32,394 nucleotides of DNA, taken from NCBI GenBank assembly GCA_028685295.1, contig JAQUEL010000012.1, positions 1-32,394 on the forward strand, written 5' to 3'. The notes beneath the pieces were generated by a model. The model was not told the origin of the DNA. It saw only the letters and a list, made by a program, of their open reading frames with translations, and ran no database searches. This document shows positions 4,974-22,556 of the stretch, in pieces. The DNA is from a bacterium (GTDB lineage Bacteria > UBP13 > UBA5359). A program made the position numbers and the translations under genes. How positions within the stretch are numbered: the stretch's first letter is position 1; each line of letters begins with the position of its first letter.

Positions 4974-5388
4974 GAGAGCAGATCGGGTGGTCGCGGGCGG
5001 CTGATGCCGTTCGAGGAAAGTCCGGGCTCCATAGGGCAGGGTGCTGGATAACGTCCAGCGGGGGCGACCCCAGGGAAAGTGCCACAGAAAACAAACCGCC
5101 GCCTTAGGGCGGTAAGGGTGAAAAGGTGTCGGTAAGAGCGCACCAGCGGATGGGTGACCATCCGGCTTGGTAAACCCCACCCGGAGCAAGATCAAATAGG
5201 AGAGAATCCGCTCAGGCGGATAGCGGTGGCCCACCGGACTCTCGGGTATGATCGCTACCGGCCGTCGTGTCGCTGAGAACCGCAAGGTTCAAGGCGGAAA
5301 GGCCGACGAGGCGATAGGTAACTATCGTCCCAGATAGATGACCACTGTCTCGCAAGGGATACAGAACCCGGCTTACAGGTCTGCTCTC
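4974..5388 (+). ncRNA. rnpB: RNase P RNA, bacterial type A-like
   Basis: 'GAGGAAAGTCCGGGCTCC', 'ACAGAAA', 'GGGTGAAAAGGTG', 'GGTAAGAGCGCACCAGCGG', 'GGTAAACCCC', 'AGATAGATGACC...ACAGAACCCGGCTTACAGG'. Terminal stem GAGAGCAGA (4974) pairs with TCTGCTCTC (5380-5388). Confidence 0.96.
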
Positions 5389-5393
5389 ACTTT

Positions 5394-21064: not shown

Positions 21065-21145
21065 TTATTCAACACATAACCTTTAATCTCTTAAATATAA
21101 CCTATCTTCCCATAATTTTGCTGTTGCTTAAGTACCGGTATTTGT

Positions 21146-21174
21146 TTGACAGAGCTCCTGTGAGATGATAATAT
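21146..21174 (+). promoter_or_regulatory. Promoter-like TTGACA-17-TAATAT
   Basis: TTGACA 21146-21151, 17-nt spacer, TAATAT 21169-21174, about 180 nt upstream of the HNH_repeat-like ORF. Confidence 0.55.
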
Positions 21175-21357
21175 CTTGTAGGATATTCATAGCCGGCACC
21201 TCTGTTTCGGCAGGGGATTTTCATTTAAGTCAACAAAATCGTTGAAGTAGTAAGAGCGACGATAGCCATGGACGTATTGAAATAGTCGTTTCAATTATCA
21301 ACCAGAGCCTTGATATCCATTGCAGATGGCGACGGAGTTTGTGGGAGGAAAAATCAT

Positions 21358-22200
21358 ATGCCCAGGAAAATTTGGACCAGATCTATAATAGCGGCTGAAA
21401 TAAAGCGCTTACATGAGATAGGACAGGATCTTAGCTGGACGTCTATGCGGCAGGAATACGGCTATCTGCTGGCAGCTGCCGGCAGATACTTCGGCGGATG
21501 GCAGGAAGCTATTGAATTTATCGGTCTTGATTACAGCACCATACGACGTGTTGCTTCTTGGGATGCTGATAAAATCGTGAGAAAGATCAAGGAACTTTAC
21601 AAACAGGGCCATGATCTCAGCCTCAGGAATATGGTGGCTGACAGGGAGCTTTCACGTATCACCTATGCTGCCAGCCGGCACTTTGAATCCTGGAAGAATG
21701 CCATAGAGGAAGCCGGACTTGATTATGATGCTATTGCCAGACAGAAGACCTGGAGCCAGAGCGAAATAGAGGAGACTATTCTTCAGTTGCATCGTGCCGG
21801 TGAAGATCTCAGTTCCAAGCAGATGGATATATCTCACCAGCCTCTGATTAGTGCTGCCCGCAAGAGGTTCGGCACTTGGGAAAAAGCCATAAATCATGTA
21901 GGTCTCGATTACGATAAGATCCGTAAACGTGAACATTGGACCAGGGATAAGATTTTAAATAAAATCAAAGCGCTTCATGAGGATGGCGAGAGCCTGCGCA
22001 GCACATACATTCTGAAGCGCTATCCCGCACTCTATGCGGCTACACAGAAGAAGCGTTATTTCGGCGGCTGGATTAATGCCGTCAGAGCGGCAGGTATAGA
22101 GTATAACAGCCGTAAAGTTCCTAAAATGACCAGACTTCAGCTTGACCAGTTTATAAAAAAACAGCGCCTGGATAAGAAGAGAGTTGCGGCGGTAAAATAA
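21358..22200 (+). CDS. Four-repeat homing-endonuclease-associated repeat (HNH_repeat-like) protein without nuclease domain
   Basis: ATG preceded by GGGAGGA. 280 aa with repeats starting at W6, W68, W132, W194: 'W(T/S)xxxI...I..LH..G.DLS......L..AA.R.FG.W..AI...GLDYD.I'. Confidence 0.85.
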   Translation: MPRKIWTRSIIAAEIKRLHEIGQDLSWTSMRQEYGYLLAAAGRYFGGWQEAIEFIGLDYSTIRRVASWDADKIVRKIKELYKQGHDLSLRNMVADRELSRITYAASRHFESWKNAIEEAGLDYDAIARQKTWSQSEIEETILQLHRAGEDLSSKQMDISHQPLISAARKRFGTWEKAINHVGLDYDKIRKREHWTRDKILNKIKALHEDGESLRSTYILKRYPALYAATQKKRYFGGWINAVRAAGIEYNSRKVPKMTRLQLDQFIKKQRLDKKRVAAVK

Positions 22201-22222: not shown

Positions 22223-22252
22223 TTGAAGGGTAGCGGGCATATATGGTAGAAT
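22223..22252 (+). promoter_or_regulatory. rpmE promoter-like TTGAAG-18-TAGAAT
   Basis: TTGAAG 22223-22228, TAGAAT 22247-22252, followed by an approximately 90-nt leader. Confidence 0.5.
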
Positions 22253-22349: not shown

Positions 22350-22556
22350 ATGAAAACGGGAATACATCCTAAGGTTGTCAAGACGACCATAACATGCAGT
22401 TGTGGAGAGAAGATACCTATTCAATCTACTAAGGAAGATCTTAAAGTTGAGATCTGCTCTTGTTGCCATCCTTTCTATACAGGAAACCGGGGCAGGGTAG
22501 CTTCTACAGCCGGTCGGGTTGAGAAGTTCAAAAAGAAATACGGCTTGGCAGAGTAG
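22350..22556 (+). CDS. rpmE: 50S ribosomal protein L31 (zinc-binding form)
   Basis: '[65 protein letters not shown]' with CxC...CxxC. Confidence 0.97.

Follow-up and report, generated by a model that had tools for sequence, protein, structure and literature searches.

Described relatives of the array protein

The module family to which the protein studied here belongs, Pfam HNH_repeat (PF18780), is already known. Its members include a Halobaculum plasmid protein (L024) that has tandem modules of the same family but, unlike our protein, which lacks such a domain, is annotated as an HNH endonuclease. Ordinary HNH_repeat arrays also stand alone: an 872-aa Bacillus plasmid protein contains 15 matched stretches and another stand-alone protein, of 427 aa, contains five, and several lineages, as well as Bacillus plasmids, have nuclease-free arrays of 2 to 15 modules. 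The repeat-only architecture, which a preceding sequence-only reading of this locus had presented as unusual, is therefore not itself new. (The protein with 15 stretches, annotated as hypothetical, is one of three HNH_repeat-type proteins lying near each other on a Bacillus subtilis plasmid, L023 1405–5984.) The literature searched, a limited library, yielded no paper on the function of PF18780 and no DNA-binding experiment on such modules, and no solved relative of PF18780 was found by sequence or fold.

A four-module array upstream of rpmE

The window (the whole 32,394-nt stretch of DNA that was analyzed) contains one such gene, with the following features.

21119–21151, + strand: 33-bp conserved block, a candidate operator, which ends with the −35 box included
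21130–21143, + strand: imperfect palindrome AAGTACCGGTATTT inside the 33-bp block
21146–21174, + strand: sigma-70 type promoter, TTGACA–17 nt–TAATAT, with TG before the −10 box
21343–21348, + strand: ribosome-binding site GGGAGG, kept with small changes across the genus (alignment)
21358–22200, + strand: four-module stand-alone HNH_repeat coding sequence (ATG open reading frame, 280 aa, pI 9.9 [9.88])
21373–21558, + strand: module 1, W6 to S67
21559–21750, + strand: module 2, W68 to T131
21751–21936, + strand: module 3, W132 to H193
21937–22122, + strand: module 4, W194 to about residue 255 (end at ~251–255)
22123–22197, + strand: basic C-terminal tail (residues ~256–280), one helix predicted at residues 259–279
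22350–22556, + strand: rpmE (ribosomal protein L31), the downstream neighbor, name read from sequence

The module starts proposed from the sequence (W6, W68, W132, and W194; spacing of 62, 64, and 62 aa) were reproduced, and the four modules share 30 to 45% pairwise identity. The suggested likeness to HNH_repeat was borne out by a PF18780 search, in which the whole protein scored 80.2 bits (E = 1.4e-22, four stretches) against a gathering cutoff of 26 bits. In contrast to PF18780 at large, the modules open with an invariant W and have a longer GLDYxxIR-type linker, and the subgroup that they represent, here called W-led, scores weakly per module. Scans against Pfam, NCBIfam, and PHROGs found no HNH, GIY-YIG, or LAGLIDADG nuclease domain, as the sequence-only reading had maintained. 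All remaining Pfam and NCBIfam matches fall below their cutoffs; Pfam detects neither an HTH_3 nor a receiver domain, and no solved chain with sequence similarity was found. The tail, described earlier as short and basic, is indeed basic and can now be refined to a single predicted helix. The protein as a whole is also basic, versus a pI of 4.9 to 6.4 for most window proteins tested, and its gene is present as a single copy in the genome.

Two other origins or roles were considered and rejected: phage records gave no match and a scan of close relatives brought up no viral contig, which speaks against a phage or mobile origin, and PADLOC returned no match that would mark the protein as part of a defense system. 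Elsewhere in the window, at 4975–5391 (+), lies a bacterial class A RNase P RNA (RF00010, 281 bits), the sole Rfam match in the whole stretch.

Conservation within the genus

Two other genomes of the genus encode the same four-module protein at 96% and 85% identity, matching it in length and modules (alignment), and in all three genomes the array gene occupies one locus, before rpmE. Because one of the two ortholog genomes is the UBP13 MAG UBA5359, the host is a bacterium of candidate phylum UBP13 and not a Clostridium; the earlier placement in the Clostridia is accordingly dropped. The gene is under purifying selection, with dN/dS values of 0.067 and 0.064 against the two orthologs.

These data bear on whether the gene is what remains of a homing endonuclease after loss of the nuclease domain, as the family name and the HNH-annotated relatives on haloarchaeal plasmids might suggest. 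Such a relic is very improbable given the purifying selection, the single architecture in three genomes, the conservation of stand-alone W-led arrays in other phyla, and the lack of a nuclease among the W-led proteins scanned. A truncated endonuclease is excluded by the intact four-module orthologs, together with that selection, and the homologs examined do not consistently end in a nuclease, in keeping with the earlier view of the protein as a complete, nuclease-free unit. Nor does the gene have the patchy occurrence at different sites expected of homing-endonuclease mobility, being at the same locus in 3/3 genomes.

Promoter region and neighboring genes

The two other genomes of the genus also keep the TTGACA–17–TAATAT promoter (alignment), which supports the promoter-like element noted earlier. 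Overlapping it, the 33-bp block has a single mismatch between the window and a second genome of the genus (G002), against 53% identity at the fourfold sites of the gene. Searches of the three genomes for the block returned only the gene's own promoter, plus one site in G002 with three mismatches; thus, no regulon is visible beyond the window gene itself. The promoter region has no direct repeats matching the four modules. The block could be a site for the window protein or for another factor, and is a candidate only; autoregulation through it is possible.

The position just upstream of rpmE, also noted from the sequence, recurs in 3/3 genomes, with a gap of 149 bp between the stop codon of the window gene and the start of rpmE. 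The latter has its own promoter-like site at 22223–22252 and is thought not to be part of the system. The gene run after the array, which we take from the translations to be rpmE, a yqhQ-like gene, prfA, and prmC, follows the array gene in the two other genomes as well. The translations read reveal no recognizable receiver or kinase gene adjoining the window gene.

W-led arrays in other lineages

When PF18780 was searched with a strict threshold for each module, even the window's own genus went undetected, so a multi-module profile (A2), built from seven W-led array sequences, was used instead over 386 genomes at a cutoff of 1e-8. W-led arrays of 2 to 8 modules occur in 14/386 genomes, and further W-led members were found in two small phyla (7/7 and 6/14 genomes). 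Module number varies from two (L074) through three (L073, L075, L078, and L080) and four (L072) to eight (L070), and one protein (L069) has an N-terminal part followed by three modules. Slot-by-slot module orthology between the window protein and the arrays of other phyla was attempted and abandoned, there being no consistent register. One genome (L100/G121) contains several W-led arrays, of which the eight-module protein adjoins a resolvase/recombinase gene.

Several W-led arrays share their polypeptide with a DNA-binding domain (Pfam). The proteins of L034, L081, and L085, the first of which was the top-scoring hit from beyond the genus when genomes were searched, have W-led modules like the window protein but differ from it in an N-terminal ROS/MUCR zinc finger. 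Proteins of a Brevibacillus plasmid (L021), a viral contig (L052), and an Alicyclobacillus plasmid (L022) each have roughly four W-led modules, which can be aligned over the length of the window protein; they differ from it in an added C-terminal HTH_3/Xre domain and in residing on plasmids or viral-type contigs. With such fusions among its relatives, the nucleic-acid-binding role first put forward from the sequence is probable.

Among the W-led array proteins scanned, none has a known nuclease domain. On one viral contig (L086), a W-led protein also carries DHH domains, and a bacterial hexapeptide-repeat enzyme of the sugar nucleotide type (L141 3873–4961) ends in two C-terminal W-led modules. 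Small viral-contig proteins of ~106 to 126 aa (L059, L064, and L087 to L096) consist of a single W-led module with a tail rich in Cys and His; in the three scanned, this tail matches no Pfam family.

Two-component genes beside W-led arrays

Along with the variation of 2 to 8 in module number, the survey of relatives and their neighbors found receiver or kinase genes beside the arrays of two phyla. In one small phylum, whose seven genomes span three families and four genera, a lone receiver (Response_reg) gene immediately precedes a three-module array in 7/7 genomes (L103 2979–3967, L107 5891–6915, L110, L117, L118, L119, and L120); three of these receivers were identified by Pfam and the rest by similarity to two of them. 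Receiver and array overlap by 13 bp in L103, L110, L144, and L145 and are separated by gaps of 14 bp in L107 and 51 bp in L143. Such a pair is a candidate split response regulator.

In another phylum, five genomes (G391 to G395; L136 to L140) have a HisKA+HATPase_c kinase gene with 15 to 40 bp between its end and the four-module array that follows, with both domains confirmed by Pfam in two of the five kinases and the same C-terminal motif present in the other three. The arrays, with a relative in G385, have four modules like the window protein and a length close to its own (268 to 276 aa), and the one scanned has no other Pfam domain; in contrast to the window gene, those of G391 to G395 are directly downstream of the kinase gene. 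About 4 to 7 kb of each locus holds the gene run rplT–pdxA–histidine kinase–array, convergent with a run whose translations read like ftsZ–ftsA. The kinase-array arrangement is absent from G385, the sixth array-bearing genome of this phylum. The DNA upstream of the G391 to G395 arrays is the end of the kinase coding sequence, and phylogenetic footprinting found no shared upstream element among the other array groups. G116 and G253, two genomes from a single genus, each have a three-module array gene that runs 4 bp into the beginning of the gene that follows (L105 3019–6044, L106 5624–8652); in L105, Pfam identifies that gene as polA.

The proposed role of the array resembles that of two-component response regulators, as the DNA-binding output of signaling, with the difference that the relatives encode receiver and array separately and that neither a receiver nor a kinase gene adjoins the window gene. 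The link between W-led arrays and receivers or kinases appears not to have been described in the literature searched, a limited library, and neither was the W-led stand-alone group found there.

Another reading is that the array binds RNA, for example an rpmE or ribosomal leader, as an RNA-binding or ribosome-associated regulator. The basic pI would suit such a role, as would the position upstream of rpmE in 3/3 genomes of the genus, the rplT–pdxA–kinase–array run that holds the four-module arrays of G385's phylum, and the proximity of one REC-linked array to rpmE and prfA homologs. It is nonetheless unlikely: rpmE lies 149 bp beyond the array gene and is preceded by a promoter-like site of its own, other arrays adjoin polA, ldh, recombinase genes, or a gene for a lumazine-binding-domain protein, and the W-led fusions are to zinc finger and Xre domains that bind DNA.

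Predicted structure and candidate contact residues

AlphaFold models module 3, from a 39-row module alignment, with a pLDDT of 88.5 and a pTM of 0.75, as four helices (5–17, 24–30, 32–42, and 45–51) plus a linker helix. For the full-length protein, a pLDDT of 79.9 with a pTM of 0.34 means that the modules are fairly confident and their relative placement uncertain. Foldseek found no PDB match at E below 0.001 for the module or the full-length model, and thus fold alone gives no hint of function.

The absence of a structural match to a DNA-binding fold agrees with a protein-protein adaptor or scaffold, one that would bind receivers or kinases rather than DNA in a signaling pathway, and the linkage of arrays to receiver and kinase genes would fit that role too. 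We consider an adaptor distinctly unlikely in view of the zinc-finger and HTH domains fused to W-led arrays, the DNA-acting domains that accompany this Pfam family in proteins of the HNH type, and the basic character of the window protein.

We analyzed 58 module columns in five ortholog groups for slot specificity, that is, for residues that vary between modules but are fixed per slot among orthologs. Such columns, of the kind that a TALE-like reader with one module per base or base group and a residue code would need, take in column 22 of helix 2 together with columns 33 and 37 of helix 3. A bias of such columns toward helices 2 and 3 over helix 1 is significant in two of the five groups (P = 0.0005 in the kinase-linked group and 0.019 in the group of 223-aa arrays), borderline in the window genus (P = 0.067), and absent from the REC-linked (P = 0.49) and polA-linked (P = 0.42) groups. 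Because the comparison of helices 2 and 3 with helix 1 was picked after the columns were seen, the bias is a lead and not proof. Statistical support for the earlier idea that an extended site is read one module at a time is thus weak and mixed, with a counterpart in two groups, a hint in the window's own, and none in the remaining two.

Slot specificity also bears on whether the array coats or bends DNA nonspecifically, in the manner of a nucleoid protein. That would accommodate a basic protein of repeated modules whose number varies among relatives, yet it has only a slim chance of being right, as a nonspecific coater needs neither modules that are just 30 to 45% identical nor slot-specific residues that are kept in orthologs.

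A putative DNA-binding regulator

On the basis of sequence comparison, the window protein is probably, with considerable room for doubt, a sequence-specific DNA-binding transcription regulator in which the four-module array is the DNA-contacting part. The adjacency of relatives to signaling genes and their fusion to DNA-binding domains make a gene regulator the most likely identity. DNA would be contacted by the four helical HNH_repeat modules, with no catalytic domain involved; the modules, which are predicted to fold separately with short linker helices between them, would lie along an extended DNA site, and helices 2 and 3 of every module would form the likely contact face. In other phyla, arrays of this kind are, judging from gene order, probably the output partners of lone receiver proteins or of histidine kinases. 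In the window genus, the array gene has no such neighbor, and the protein may perhaps be a constitutive or autoregulated factor, conceivably with the 33-bp block at its own promoter as its site.

The regulator reading is favored by the ROS/MUCR and HTH_3/Xre fusions of W-led relatives and by the receiver and kinase genes that adjoin them, as well as by HNH_repeat membership in a nuclease-free protein with conserved orthologs and low dN/dS. Also in its favor are the basic pI, the confident four-helix model of the single module, the helix 2–3 bias in two of five groups (borderline in its own), and a 33-bp block far more conserved than fourfold sites. Against it stand the failure of either model to match any solved structure (E below 0.001), the missing helix bias in two of five groups, the fact that partner genes do not adjoin the window gene, and the restriction of the block, which another factor could bind, to the gene's own promoter.

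More broadly, and quite tentatively, W-led arrays may constitute an undescribed class of bacterial regulators whose 2 to 8 modules read extended DNA module by module, in some phyla as a separate DNA-binding output of two-component signaling, with the window protein as a stand-alone member. Conserved module-only genes beside receivers or kinases offer a clean system for testing the module as a sequence reader, and they are equally suited to asking whether the bound site follows from the order of the modules. Should this prove so, these arrays would represent both a new modular scaffold for DNA recognition and a novel type of output for two-component systems.
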